NCBI GenBank assembly: GCA_903832325.1
Contig: CAILBC010000032.1
Location: forward strand, 1 to 64,000
Length of the DNA stretch: 64,000 bases
Source: an uncultured Sphingomonadales bacterium
GTDB lineage: Bacteria; Pseudomonadota; Alphaproteobacteria; Sphingomonadales; Sphingomonadaceae
Direction of reading: 5' to 3'
Every line of letters starts with the position of its first letter. Position 1 is the first letter of the stretch. Positions 2,061 through 59,970 of the stretch are shown piece by piece. Made by a program: the position numbers and the translations under genes. The notes below the pieces were generated by a model. It worked only from the letters and a program-made list of their open reading frames with translations. It searched no databases and was not told where the DNA came from.

Positions 2061-2119
2061 ATCCTCCCCGATACGGGGAGGGGGACCGCCCGCAGGGTGG
2101 TGGAGGGGTATGGCCCCGC
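2061..2119 (+). repeat. two-hairpin palindromic repeat, copy R1
   Basis: This is copy R1 of a roughly 57-bp repeat. It contains hairpin 1 (CTCCCCG/CGGGGAG), then GGGGACC, hairpin 2 (CCGCCC-GCA-GGGTGG), then TGGAGGGGT and GCCCC. The same architecture recurs at 2151, 59161, 59219 and 59621. Its GGAGGGG lies 2 nt before an ATG at 2110, so the repeat carries its own Shine-Dalgarno and start codon. Confidence 0.85.
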
Positions 2120-2145
2120 ATGACCAGGTTCGAAAGGTCACATGA
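2110..2145 (+). CDS. possible 11-codon leader peptide coupled to ispE
   Basis: An ATG at 2110 sits 2 nt after GGAGGGG within repeat R1 and opens an 11-codon frame (MAPHDQVRKVT). Its TGA at 2143-2145 overlaps both possible ispE start codons (ATGATG at 2142-2147). The stop/start overlap is what translational coupling would look like. The spacing from Shine-Dalgarno to ATG is short, so translation is uncertain. Confidence 0.3.
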   Translation: MAPHDQVRKVT

Positions 2146-3017
2146 TGAGGCGAACCCCCTCCGCCAGCTTTGCTGGTCCCCCTCCCGGAAACGGGGAGGA
2201 TGTCGAGATTGCCTATGCCAAGATCAATCTGGCGCTGCATGTGCGCGGGCGGCGGGCCGATGGCTATCATGATCTGGAAACGCTGTTTGCCTTTGTCGAT
2301 GCGGGCGACACGATCACCGCGCGCGAGGCTGATGCGTTTTCGCTGACCATAACCGGGCCCTTTGCCGCCGATCTGGCTGACGAGCCCGACAATCTGGTGC
2401 TGCGCGCCGCGCGCCTGATGGCCCGGCACAACGGCATCACCACCGGATTGGCCTTTACGCTCGACAAACACCTGCCGATCGCATCGGGCATCGGTGGCGG
2501 CTCTGCCGATGCCGCGGCGGCGCTGCGCCTGGCAGACCGGATCTGGGGGCCGCAGCGGGTCACGGTGCGCGCGTCCGAATATTGTGCTGACCTGGGGGCC
2601 GATGTCCCGGCGTGCTGCGTATCGCGCACACGCTTTGGCAGCGGCGTGGGTGACCGGCTGGTGGATTGCGACATTGCTGGCCTGGCCGGGGCACCGGTCC
2701 TGCTGGTCAATCCGCTGGTTGCCTGCCCGACGGGCCCGGTATTCCGGCAATGGGACGGCATCGACAGGGGGCCTCTCGATCCGGTGGAGTGGCGCGATGC
2801 CCGCAACGATCTTGAGGCACCGGCCATTGCCCTGGTCCCCGTGATCGGCGATGTGCTGGCGGCCCTGCGCCATACCGGCGCGCGACTGGTGCGCATGTCG
2901 GGCTCTGGCGCGACGTGTTTTGCGCTATACGATTATGCCCCGGCGCGCGACCGGGCGGCGCAGGTGATTGCGGCCGACCATCCCGCCTGGTGGAGCCTTT
3001 GCGGAGCATTGCGATGA
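2142..3017 (+). CDS. ispE: 4-(cytidine-5'-diphospho)-2-C-methyl-D-erythritol kinase
   Basis: IspE is the GHMP-family kinase of the non-mevalonate isoprenoid pathway and phosphorylates CDP-methylerythritol. It would feed the carotenoid genes elsewhere in this window. Conserved features are AYAKINLALHV (residues 24-34), the glycine-rich ATP motif LPIASGIGGGSADAAAA near 110-125 and the C-terminal MSGSGATCF near 250. The enzyme proper begins at about residue 22. Residues 3-20 are encoded by the inverted palindromic repeat R2, and I see no ATG, GTG or TTG between the repeat and the kinase domain, so the start must be the ATG at 2142 or 2145. AAAGG at 2133-2137 is a plausible Shine-Dalgarno. The stop overlaps the next start (ATGA). 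Confidence 0.93.
   Translation: MMRRTPSASFAGPPPGNGEDVEIAYAKINLALHVRGRRADGYHDLETLFAFVDAGDTITAREADAFSLTITGPFAADLADEPDNLVLRAARLMARHNGITTGLAFTLDKHLPIASGIGGGSADAAAALRLADRIWGPQRVTVRASEYCADLGADVPACCVSRTRFGSGVGDRLVDCDIAGLAGAPVLLVNPLVACPTGPVFRQWDGIDRGPLDPVEWRDARNDLEAPAIALVPVIGDVLAALRHTGARLVRMSGSGATCFALYDYAPARDRAAQVIAADHPAWWSLCGALR
2151..2203 (-). repeat. two-hairpin palindromic repeat, copy R2 (inverted)
   Basis: R2 lies in the opposite orientation to R1. Read on the minus strand it has hairpin 1 CTCCCCG..CGGGAG, GGGGACC, hairpin 2 CCAGC-AAA-GCTGG and GGAGGGGGTTCGCC. The second stem differs from R1 at both arms yet still pairs, so the structure is conserved by compensating changes. On the plus strand it is translated as the N-terminal extension of IspE. 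Confidence 0.8.
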
Positions 3018-58024: not shown

Positions 58025-59155
58025 GTGGCAAAGCCCCTCGACATCGTGGTGCTGCGCGAGCGCGCACCGGGCGAAACGCGCGTTGCGGCAACCCCGGAAA
58101 CGGTCAGGAAGCTGATCGCGCTGGGTGCCGCAGTTACGGTCGAGGCGGGGGCGGGCGCTGCCGCATCGCTGTCTGACGATGATTATGCCGCCGCCGGCGC
58201 AAAGATTGCCCAGGCCGATGCGGCGCAAGGTGCCGATATCGTGCTGGCGGTTCAGGGGCCCGAGGCGGACATGCTGGCCGGGGCCAATTCCGGCGCGTGG
58301 ATCGTGGCGGGTCTTGATCCGTTTGGCCGGCGCGACCGGGTCGATGCCTATGCCGGCGCCGGGTTTGAGGCGCTGGCGATGGAATTCATGCCGCGCATCA
58401 CGCGCGCGCAATCGATGGATATTCTGTCGAGCCAGGCCAATCTGTCGGGATACAAGGCGGTGCTGATCGCGGCGAACCTTTATGGCCGCGCCTTTCCGAT
58501 GATGATGACCGCGGCCGGCACGGTCAGCGCGGCCAAGGCCTTTGTGATGGGCGTGGGCGTGGCCGGGCTTCAGGCGATTGCCACGGCACGCCGCCTGGGC
58601 GCGCAAGTATCGGCGACCGATGTGCGATCAGCCACCAGGGAACAGATCCAGTCGCTGGGCGCAAAGCCGATTTTCGTCGAAAACGTGAAGGGCATCGAAG
58701 GCGAAGGCGCGGGCGGCTATGCCACCGAAATGAGCGCCGAATACCAGGCGGCGCAGGCCGAACTGGTATCCAGCCATATCGCCAAGCAGGATATCGTGAT
58801 CACCACCGCGCTGATCCCCGGCCGCGCTGCGCCGCGCCTGATCAGCGATGCGCAGATCGCGACGATGAAGCCGGGCAGCGTGATTTATGACCTGGCCGTG
58901 GCCCAGGGCGGCAATGTCGAAGGATCGGTGCCCGATCAGGTGGTCGAAATCCACGGGGTGAAAGTGGTCGGCTATGCCAACACCCCCGCGCAGCTTCCGG
59001 CTGATGCTTCGGCGCTGTTTGCGCGCAACCTCTACAATTTCCTCAATGCCTTCTGGGACAAGGAAGCGGGCCGCCCGGTGCTGGATGAGGAAATCGGCAA
59101 TGCCATCCGCCTGACCCAGGGCGGCAAAGTGGTGCACGAAAGGCTTTTGGGGTGA
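58025..59155 (+). CDS. pntAA: NAD(P) transhydrogenase subunit alpha, part 1
   Basis: This is the soluble NAD(H)-binding domain of proton-translocating transhydrogenase, which makes NADPH from NADH using proton-motive force. The 376-residue product has the N-terminal LRERAPGETRVAATPETVRKL, QANLSGYKAVLIAA, the Rossmann VMGVGVAGLQAIATARRLGA and the GYANTPAQLPADAS segment. The start is the GTG at 58025. In other alphaproteobacteria part 2 of the alpha subunit follows at once; here 530 bp with repeats and a DUF559 nuclease gene intervene. Confidence 0.95.
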   Translation: MAKPLDIVVLRERAPGETRVAATPETVRKLIALGAAVTVEAGAGAAASLSDDDYAAAGAKIAQADAAQGADIVLAVQGPEADMLAGANSGAWIVAGLDPFGRRDRVDAYAGAGFEALAMEFMPRITRAQSMDILSSQANLSGYKAVLIAANLYGRAFPMMMTAAGTVSAAKAFVMGVGVAGLQAIATARRLGAQVSATDVRSATREQIQSLGAKPIFVENVKGIEGEGAGGYATEMSAEYQAAQAELVSSHIAKQDIVITTALIPGRAAPRLISDAQIATMKPGSVIYDLAVAQGGNVEGSVPDQVVEIHGVKVVGYANTPAQLPADASALFARNLYNFLNAFWDKEAGRPVLDEEIGNAIRLTQGGKVVHERLLG

Positions 59156-59160
59156 GGGGG

Positions 59161-59215
59161 CAAACCCCTCCACCACCCTTTGGGCGGTCCCCCTCCCCGG
59201 TCCGGGAAGGACTGG
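59161..59215 (-). repeat. two-hairpin palindromic repeat, copy R3
   Basis: Read on the minus strand: CTTCCCGGACCGGGGAG, GGGGACC, hairpin 2 CCGCCC-AAA-GGGTGG and GGAGGGGTTTGCCCC. It begins 5 bp after the pntAA stop and faces R4 head to head, 3 bp apart. Confidence 0.85.
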
Positions 59216-59218
59216 AAC

Positions 59219-59276
59219 ATCCTCCCCGGACCGGGGAGGGGGACCATGCGCAGCATGGTGGAGGGGTAATGCCCCA
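59219..59276 (+). repeat. two-hairpin palindromic repeat, copy R4
   Basis: On the plus strand: CTCCCCGGACCGGGGAG, GGGGACC, hairpin 2 CCATGC-GCA-GCATGG and GGAGGGGTAATGCCCC. The second stem differs from R1, R3 and R5 at two paired positions, keeping the pairing. Its GGAGGGG (59260-59266) and ATG (59269) are the ribosome binding site and start of the DUF559 gene. Confidence 0.87.
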
Positions 59277-59682
59277 AGCGCCAGGCCATGAAATTTCAGG
59301 TCCGGTCGTGAAGCGCGCGCGCGAATTGCGCAAGGCGATGTCTTTGCCCGAAGTGCAGTTGTGGCGCCAATTGCGTTTGCGGCCTAATGGGCTGAAATTT
59401 CGTCGTCAGCATCCCATCGCCCCTTATGTCGTGGATTTCTGCTGCATGTCCGCGCGGCTCGTTGTCGAAATTGACGGGTTCGCGCATAACACTGGCAACC
59501 GTCCCGCACGCGATACTGCGAGAACACGGTTTCTGGAAAACAACGGGTACACAGTTATACGGATTTCTGCTGCGCAAGTGCTGGCGGATACCGTGGGTAC
59601 GGCTGAGGCGATCGCGGGGTGTGGGGCGAAACCCCTCCACCGCCCTGCGGGCGGTCCCCCTCCCCGTGCCGGGGAGGATTGA
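59269..59682 (+). CDS. DUF559 (Vsr-like) endonuclease, flanked by palindromic repeats
   Basis: A 137-residue protein of the DUF559 family, small nucleases with the Vsr/very-short-patch-repair endonuclease fold. The core is intact: KAMSLPEVQLWRQLR (E in helix 1), LRPNGLKFRRQHPIAPYVVDF (catalytic Asp), and ARLVVEIDGFAH (Glu, Asp, His). The C-terminal 17 or so residues are encoded by repeat R5 and its first codons by R4, so gene and repeats are physically one unit. It interrupts the pnt operon, between pntAA and pntAB. Biological role unknown; a nuclease acting on its own flanking hairpins is one possibility. Confidence 0.88.
   Translation: MPQAPGHEISGPVVKRARELRKAMSLPEVQLWRQLRLRPNGLKFRRQHPIAPYVVDFCCMSARLVVEIDGFAHNTGNRPARDTARTRFLENNGYTVIRISAAQVLADTVGTAEAIAGCGAKPLHRPAGGPPPRAGED
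59621..59680 (-). repeat. two-hairpin palindromic repeat, copy R5
   Basis: Read on the minus strand: CTCCCCGGCACGGGGAG, GGGGACC, hairpin 2 CCGCCC-GCA-GGGCGG and GGAGGGGTTTCGCCCC. It encodes the end of the DUF559 protein on the plus strand. Its GGGGAGG (59671-59677) lies 8 nt before the pntAB ATG and acts as that gene's ribosome binding site. Confidence 0.87.
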
Positions 59683-59685
59683 GCC

Positions 59686-59970
59686 ATGGATTTTGTGAGT
59701 ATCCTGTCGATTTTCGTGATGGCCTGTTTTGTGGGCTATTACGTGGTGTGGTCGGTGACCCCGGCTTTGCACACGCCGCTGATGGCGGTGACCAATGCGA
59801 TTTCCTCGGTGATCGTGGTGGGCGCGCTGATTGCGGGCGCGGCGCAGGGGTCGGCCGTTTCGAAATGGCTGGGGCTTGCGGCGGTGGTGCTGGCGAGTGT
59901 GAACATTTTCGGCGGGTTTGCCGTGACCGAGCGGATGCTGGCGATGTACAAGAAGAAGGACAAGAAGTGA
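59686..59970 (+). CDS. pntAB: NAD(P) transhydrogenase subunit alpha, part 2
   Basis: The membrane segment of the split alpha subunit of transhydrogenase. The 94-residue product has three predicted helices (about 3-25, 34-55 and 60-80) and the family's [24 protein letters not shown] followed by a basic tail, YKKKDKK. The ATG is preceded by GGGGAGG from repeat R5. Its TGA overlaps the pntB ATG (TGATG). Confidence 0.94.

Follow-up and report, generated by a model that had tools for sequence, protein, structure and literature searches.

DUF559 nucleases and the palindromic repeats that bracket their genes probably form an enzyme-repeat partnership, one that works like the RAYT/REPIN partnership with an unrelated enzyme. 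Four observations carry this reading: DUF559 genes are bracketed by inverted repeats, the type of repeat follows the nuclease clade, the dispersed copies that were sampled agree in fine detail with the nuclease of their own genome, and the number of repeat copies goes with the presence of the cognate gene. The element described here lies in a window of 64,000 nucleotides (the whole stretch of DNA that was analysed, from contig CAILBC010000032.1 of an uncultured Sphingomonadales bacterium). A first-pass annotation of this window had read the locus as a nuclease-repeat element that recalls REP/RAYT systems but has a Vsr-like nuclease as its enzyme, and the bracketing, the dispersed copies and the fold all support that proposal.

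The nuclease gene and its terminal repeats

The nuclease gene (59269..59682, forward strand, encoding 137 amino acids, with the domain match at 59311-59613) lies between a left terminal repeat, R4 (59219..59276, forward strand), and its inverse on the right, R5 (59622..59679, reverse strand). The two repeats are 58 nt each and 81% complementary, with 345 nt between them, and when folded as single-stranded DNA each formed two hairpins and a small third one (z -3.65 for R4 and -3.12 for R5). A short, gene-free facing pair of the same repeat, comparable to a REPIN, was found elsewhere in the window (2061..2201, no strand assigned). The gene had been annotated as starting within R4, which would supply both ribosome-binding site and ATG, and as ending within R5. 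The ATG at 59269 indeed lies in the inner hairpin of R4, 2 nt downstream of GGAGGGG, a spacing closer than usual for a ribosome-binding site; since the GGAGGGG is so close and an in-frame GTG at 59308 is a possible alternative, the ATG is a putative start. At the other end R5 does encode the last codons, but the stop codon TGA (59680-59682) adjoins the outer end of R5 and lies outside it. Of the 67 bracketed genes that we found in the genus Novosphingobium (see below), 56 have a reading frame that continues without a stop into the 5' arm, and likewise 56 have one that ends within or past the 3' arm. A further repeat that was said to face R4 upstream, R3 (59157..59211, reverse strand), is present and meets R4 outer end to outer end, but it folds weakly (z -0.72) and has to be placed outside the core of the element, because a related copy in genome G045 lacks it; it is probably the remnant of a neighbouring pair.

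The block is flanked by an upstream (58025..59155) and a downstream host gene (59686..59970), both on the forward strand, which we take to be pntAA and pntAB, respectively. Their adjacency in relatives, as claimed before, was seen in part of the loci. Among 31 junction loci (30 from a pntAB search that matched 49 of 59 genomes, plus the DUF559 locus of G023), nine carried a DUF559 block (including one partial domain match and one with another repeat type), 14 had a gap of at most 52 bp and one a gap of 121 bp, six had other inserts and one had no pntAA match. The 14 short gaps speak against the block being ancestral at this site in all genomes.

The encoded protein matched DUF559 in Pfam (E 1.6e-30), with two further Pfam rows under their cut-offs and no Y1_Tnp, and it matched PDB entry 3hrl at 9.7e-17. 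The fold nearest to its predicted structure (pLDDT 82.7) was again 3hrl (4.6e-6), followed by the homing endonuclease I-Bth0305I (3r3p, 1.1e-4), while mitoribosomal proteins (1.9e-4 to 3.1e-3) ranked ahead of Vsr (1vsr, 6e-3). The residues D56, E67, D69, H73 and D82 were invariant across 34 aligned DUF559 proteins, so the catalytic residues appear intact, as had been noted. By its modelled fold and these conserved acidic and histidine residues, DUF559 is a nuclease of the Vsr/EDxHD fold (PD-(D/E)XK). Of 249 genomes sampled from the phylum, 99 had a match to DUF559, and genomes of the genus had 0 to 9 such matches; in these PF04480 searches a control E. coli genome gave no match, though YcjD of strain MG1655 does score 1.4e-49.

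Bracketing of DUF559 genes by inverted repeats

For each locus the 300 bp upstream of the DUF559 domain were compared with the reverse complement of the 300 bp downstream (Smith-Waterman, +1/-2/-4), and identical comparisons displaced up and down within the locus served as controls. In Novosphingobium 67 of 110 DUF559 genes were bracketed at a score of at least 18, against 0 of 105 and 0 of 107 displaced controls (137 matches were found, the 25 weakest were left out, and two of the remaining 112 were too close to contig ends). Repeats at the ends of the gene, seen by the first-pass annotation at a single locus, thus recur in relatives. In a sample of the phylum, consisting of the 70 best-scoring places among the matches listed (two omitted; one locus, L232, with an internal stop), 42 of the 70 genes reached the same score, with controls at 0 of 69 and 0 of 69. 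The same was found for 45 of 77 loci in a named set, with 0 of 74 and 0 of 70 displaced controls; this set holds the testable loci among the best 80 of at least 574 confirmed stretches, retrieved with a single DUF559 type as the query. Three of these loci (L245, L269 and L278) come from genomes that are already in the genus set, and many others come from metagenome bins, the labels of which were taken as given. At a score of at least 14 the counts were 46 of 70 in the phylum sample and 60 of 77 in the named set, with one control per set reaching 14. Scores of at least 18 in the named set extended to one record each of Omnitrophota, Dehalococcoidia and Aminicenantes (all metagenome bins), and a Doudnabacteria bin scored 16. 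As an ordinary gene pntAB was bracketed in 0 of 29 cases. Genes matching PF01797 were bracketed in only 2 of 16 cases, which makes them a poor positive control in this genus.

The unbracketed genes of the genus are concentrated in a single 28-row clade, which occupies one site and in which no repeats were found (top score 12 among the 27 testable rows). Outside this clade 67 of 83 genes were bracketed at a score of at least 18 and 74 of 83 at a score of at least 14. The existence of a clade of this size without repeats is an observation that counts against a partnership, as do two other ORFs that lie between facing arms in genome G000.

Repeat type, nuclease clade and host site

Bracket arms were clustered and then lumped and labelled by hand. 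On a tree of 112 nuclease rows (108 columns, many unresolved forks) the repeat labels required 23 changes, against a mean of 68.5 after shuffling, and none of 200 shuffles was as low. Clade A (35 rows) had 31 A-type brackets, three rows without bracket and one with another type, and A-type brackets occurred in 0 of the other 77 rows; nucleases with A- and with B-type brackets were found together in 15 genomes. Most nuclease subclades keep one conserved host site, and part of the match between type and clade is therefore plain inheritance. Rows labelled A1 were found at six sites and rows labelled A2 at seven, with at least one site common to both (by a looser site criterion).

IS-like hopping of the nuclease gene was not supported, as sites are conserved within most subclades. 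As the gene mostly keeps one site within a subclade, it behaves like a site-stable RAYT and not like a hopping element. The earlier description as a mobile or domesticated element has to be amended accordingly: it is the short repeat pair that has multiplied, and the gene stays mostly at one site per subclade.

Dispersed copies of the repeat

In the 4.57-Mb genome to which the window belongs the core of the repeat was found 28 times in forward and 22 times in reverse orientation, against 1 and 0 times for the reversed pattern (at most three mismatches), and the dispersed copies were mostly short facing pairs round a variable spacer (among the matches listed). The relative G037 had 116 occurrences of the repeat pattern (at most two mismatches). 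The cores of its facing pairs were exactly 121 bp apart in 13 of 19 cases (among the matches listed) and those 121-bp-spaced pairs that were examined had related spacer sequences, which suggests that one element has multiplied recently. Simple internal deletion as the source of the short copies was rejected, as the dispersed copies in G037 have the terminal repeats and some eight inner bases in common with the nuclease element and diverge after that (by eye). A reading of the repeats as carriers of cargo was also set aside, the two other ORFs between facing A1 arms in G000 being without a Pfam match. No clear target-site duplication was seen by eye at the G037 elements and at the pnt site, and a search of the repeat against Rfam gave matches only under the gathering scores, mostly to eukaryotic microRNA models.

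We also found that sampled dispersed copies match the nuclease that is resident in the same genome in detail. The A1 repeat variants differ in the bases directly outside and directly inside the hairpins (the last two outer bases of an arm being, for instance, GT or AT), and these were compared for 30 of the 50 copies in G000 and for copies in G037, G006, G031 and G029 that were chosen among the matches listed (in G037 mostly for the 121-bp spacing). In G031 all nine dispersed arms had outer GT and inner ANTC, as have the arms of its own A1 nuclease. In G029 all eight had the inner CAC of its own A1 nuclease, and just three of the eight had the outer AT of that nuclease. G006 carries both kinds of nuclease, and its dispersed arms were of the forms GT..ANTC (5), AT..CAC (4), AT..ANTC (2) and others (3). 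In G037 inner ANTC was found in 22 of 22 dispersed arms, like in the pnt nuclease and unlike in a second nuclease at site C2 (the arms of a third nuclease were missed by the search expression), and in G000 outer AT was found in 27 of 30 dispersed arms.

This fine match bears on what is the strongest alternative, although we consider it unlikely: that the nuclease serves the host in DNA maintenance, as a structure-specific enzyme trimming hairpins or triplexes, the flanking repeats being its own control or terminator elements and the dispersed copies having spread by other means and persisting where the enzyme tames them. The repeats do overlap the start and stop regions of the gene, the unbracketed clade at its one conserved site appears domesticated, and a DUF559 protein of Caulobacter functions in DNA damage according to the available part of PMC12907096. 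Such an enzyme would, however, predict neither a lineage-specific match of both arms to the dispersed copies nor copies of constant size.

Copy number and the cognate gene

Among 59 genomes of the genus the repeat count separated genomes by the presence of the cognate bracketed gene with an AUC of 0.86 for A1, 0.91 for B1 and 0.96 for B2, the next-best values against the other classes (A1, B1-B4 and none) being 0.83 for A1 and B1 repeats and 0.70 for B2; the gene's own repeat pair is counted in this matrix, and A2 genes are outside it. With the own pair removed, the median number of copies with and without the gene was 17 versus 1 for A1 (p 8.9e-5), 4 versus 0 for B1 (p 0.0011) and 21 versus 0 for B2 (p 5.1e-5). 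When phylogenetically independent pairs were compared for A1, 4.7 pairs were with the association, 0.5 against and 1.8 without difference (median p 0.125, not significant), or 3.7, 0.6 and 2.7 at a stricter threshold (median p 0.375, not significant); the genus holds too few independent pairs for this ancestry-controlled test. Four genomes had at least 10 A1 copies and no A-bracketed gene that we could find (G040 with 39, G026 with 24, G018 with 14 and G050 with 11). Such persistence of repeats without a found gene, seen also in E. coli strains that lack ycjD (up to 20 matches, see below), is an observation against a partnership.

The relation between copy number and cognate gene also makes it quite improbable that the DUF559 genes are mere passengers, carried along by or by chance near repeats that insert round many genes. 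The two unrelated ORFs between facing A1 arms in G000 would fit such a reading, but displaced positions never reached a score of 18 in any of the three sets, pntAB was never bracketed in its 29 loci, and the repeats that bracket DUF559 differ from lineage to lineage. Still less probable is a plain homing endonuclease gene that is specific for a host site and has incidental repeats at its flanks. After 3hrl the predicted fold is indeed nearest to I-Bth0305I, most subclades occupy one site, and occupied as well as empty alleles exist at the pnt site; yet the subclades reside at different sites and still have facing repeats at 67 of 83 genes outside one clade, and the dispersed copies that were sampled agree with the repeats that flank the nuclease. 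That a RAYT (an HUH tyrosine transposase) moves the repeats with DUF559 as a bystander is scarcely credible, for although PF01797 genes occur in 18 of the 59 genus genomes and are weakly linked to A1 copies (AUC 0.66, p 0.042), they are missing from half (10) of the 20 genomes that have 10 or more A1 copies, including the richest (G037, 116), and both PF01797 loci of the window's own genome carry another repeat and no A1-type copies, which led us to reject RAYT as the mobiliser.

BoxC/TM repeats and ycjD of E. coli

Repeats of the BoxC/TM type were already known from E. coli in the 1990s. According to the available part of PMC4666352, a motif consisting of a hairpin plus a third strand (BoxC, PIT or TM) is found in more than 260 genomes, E. 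coli MG1655 has 23 TM copies, five times as inverted pairs, and mobility activities around the E. coli TM sites were never found by its authors; words beginning with nuclease, DUF or Vsr are absent from its main text. The motif has a hairpin and an inner purine third strand (GGGAGAGGG-TTA-GGGTGAGGG), whereas the A1 repeat of the window has two hairpins. We searched for the TM motif allowing at most 4 mismatches in 21 and found it on both sides of DUF559 in 1 of 110 genus loci, 14 of 70 loci of the phylum sample (among the matches listed) and 16 of 77 named loci, against 0 of 210, 0 of 138 and 0 of 141 displaced controls, respectively. Outside the genus about one fifth of the DUF559 genes are thus flanked on both sides. 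On at least one side it was found in 10 of 110, 27 of 70 (among the matches listed) and 34 of 77 loci, against 0 of 210, 15 of 138 and 8 of 141 controls; the occurrence of a single TM-like flank in displaced controls counts against the partnership, as does the rarity of two-sided TM in the genus. The brackets without TM consist of different palindromes, many of which, by eye, follow the same plan, with a C-rich stem outside and a G-rich tail inside.

In E. coli MG1655 TM copy no. 9 (PMC4666352, Table 1) lies at 1351204-1351239, 167 bp from ycjD (1351407-1351760), which encodes a DUF559 protein by Pfam (1.4e-49) and the 3' end of which encodes a degenerate TM copy. No TM repeat was seen 5' of ycjD in this strain; TM motifs were found on the 3' side only, which is another observation against the partnership. 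The ycjD block (80% coverage) was present in 3364 of 5426 E. coli genomes, and in three strains without ycjD that were examined efflux genes beside sapF were found in its place. Copies were counted in 60 records taken from all along the ranking of 5399 matching ones (one small record omitted), as blastn matches to the ycjD block, which were taken as TM copies and not individually read. The 37 records with ycjD had 12 to 28 other matching places (median 20) and the 22 chromosomes without it 1 to 20 (median 4), corresponding to an AUC of 0.95, in both groups with ancestry not controlled.

Comparison with known systems

In the available parts of PMC8049555 and PMC8266576 the RAYT/REPIN system is described as an enzyme gene flanked by dispersed palindromes, with inverted pairs, a site-stable gene and more copies where the gene is present. 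The DUF559 system resembles such a REPtron in that the gene is flanked by dispersed palindromes, is low-copy and site-stable, and goes with repeat abundance. In contrast, the enzyme is a PD-(D/E)XK nuclease by its predicted fold and not an HUH Y1 transposase (PF01797), and GTAG/CTAC, of which GTAG is the foot of the RAYT palindrome, was found in the outer 8 or inner 14 bases of 0 of 32 arms in G000 and 0 of 22 arms in G037. Because the HUH enzyme and the GTAG foot are absent, the system is not a RAYT by membership. It resembles MITEs with an autonomous partner in having short copies with the terminal repeats of the gene-bearing copy, but differs in being without a transposase, in showing no clear target-site duplication (by eye) and in having a gene that is mostly fixed at its site. 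With the Vsr-like EDxHD homing endonucleases (I-Bth0305I) it shares the fold of the predicted DUF559 model. To our knowledge, the known enzymes of that group are associated with introns, inteins or host sites and not with dispersed palindromes. The BoxC/PIT/TM repeats are alike in that a TM-like motif stands on both sides of some DUF559 genes and that E. coli copy no. 9 adjoins ycjD, and unlike in the architecture of the repeat. VsrA of Caulobacter is also a DUF559 nuclease of an alphaproteobacterium; it has been proposed to act in mismatch repair linked to cytosine methylation, and words beginning with palindrom are absent from the main text of that paper (PMC12907096).

A description of the pairing of DUF559 and repeats was not found in literature on DUF559, COG2852 or the letters of the repeat (with preprints and most subscription journals outside the scope of this search), nor in the available parts of PMC4666352, PMC12907096, PMC8049555, PMC8266576, PMC3733652 and PMC2229807.

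A possible mechanism

The partnership of nuclease and repeats might work as follows. A gene-bearing unit, with the nuclease gene between two inverted terminal repeats, would be accompanied by non-autonomous units, in which the same repeats are paired round a short, gene-free spacer and are spread through the genome. The nuclease may recognise the repeat in its folded state, probably when the DNA is single-stranded or cruciform; in Novosphingobium its target would be the hairpins, in TM-like forms the hairpin with its third strand. A nick or cut near the outer tip could follow. Host repair would then copy the element into other sites, or convert an element already there. Repair that is templated by other copies would also keep the gene-flanking and the dispersed repeats alike. 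The nuclease gene is for the most part inherited in place, the short repeat pair being what multiplied. A lone nuclease can nick or cut but cannot join strands, and insertion must therefore need host factors; likewise, the chemistry must differ from that of RAYT, as the enzyme is a different one.

A broader reading goes beyond this: DUF559 proteins may be the trans-acting enzymes of palindromic and triplex repeats (BoxC/TM and kin) throughout the bacteria, by which the folded repeat is recognised and then spread or homogenised by cut-and-repair without any transposase. This would be a second answer, different in its chemistry, to the way of life of RAYT/REPIN. On the sequence comparisons presented here we give this generalisation slightly less than an even chance.

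Significance

That the pairing recurs in many bacteria and has a counterpart in E. coli suggests that DUF559 is the missing partner of widespread, unexplained bacterial repeats. If true, this would give the BoxC/TM repeats an origin, their spread would be testable in E. coli K-12 with a single gene deletion, and a role would be suggested for a widespread protein family of unknown function. It would also mean that a way of life based on an enzyme and dispersed palindromes arose with two unrelated enzymes. A nuclease-driven repeat cycle would, if shown biochemically, merit a category of its own.

Repeat-bracketed and repeat-free DUF559 genes

The junction between pntAA and pntAB is occupied in genome G023 (locus L119, contig C145) by a DUF559 gene of another subclade with repeats of the A2 type, which suggests that this site was occupied a second time, independently. 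In the window's own genome, G000, facing arms of its A1 repeat also enclose two ORFs that are unrelated and encode about 121 and 130 aa (L043, C26:77108-77846, and L040, C21:27602-28249), neither with a Pfam match, and copies of the RAYT-type Y1 transposase (L063, C8:101528, and L064, C46:1737) are flanked by their own, different repeat with GGGGACAGTATACT. Inverted brackets of unusual length (scores 98 and 81) surround two DUF559 genes 5.7 kb apart in genome G215 (C31, L182 and L207).

Genome G031, which has 17 copies of the B2 repeat, probably holds a broken DUF559 copy at C15:37441-37754, since two weak, overlapping matches, one with a stop, adjoin B2 repeats there.

A DUF559 clade of 28 rows (L138, L147-L150, L152, L153, L155-L174 and one gene of L120) lacks repeats and lies at one conserved genus site, presumably the suf genes, where relatives have B3-bracketed genes; L120, from G031, is a tandem of one gene of each kind. 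This repeat-free clade looks domesticated.
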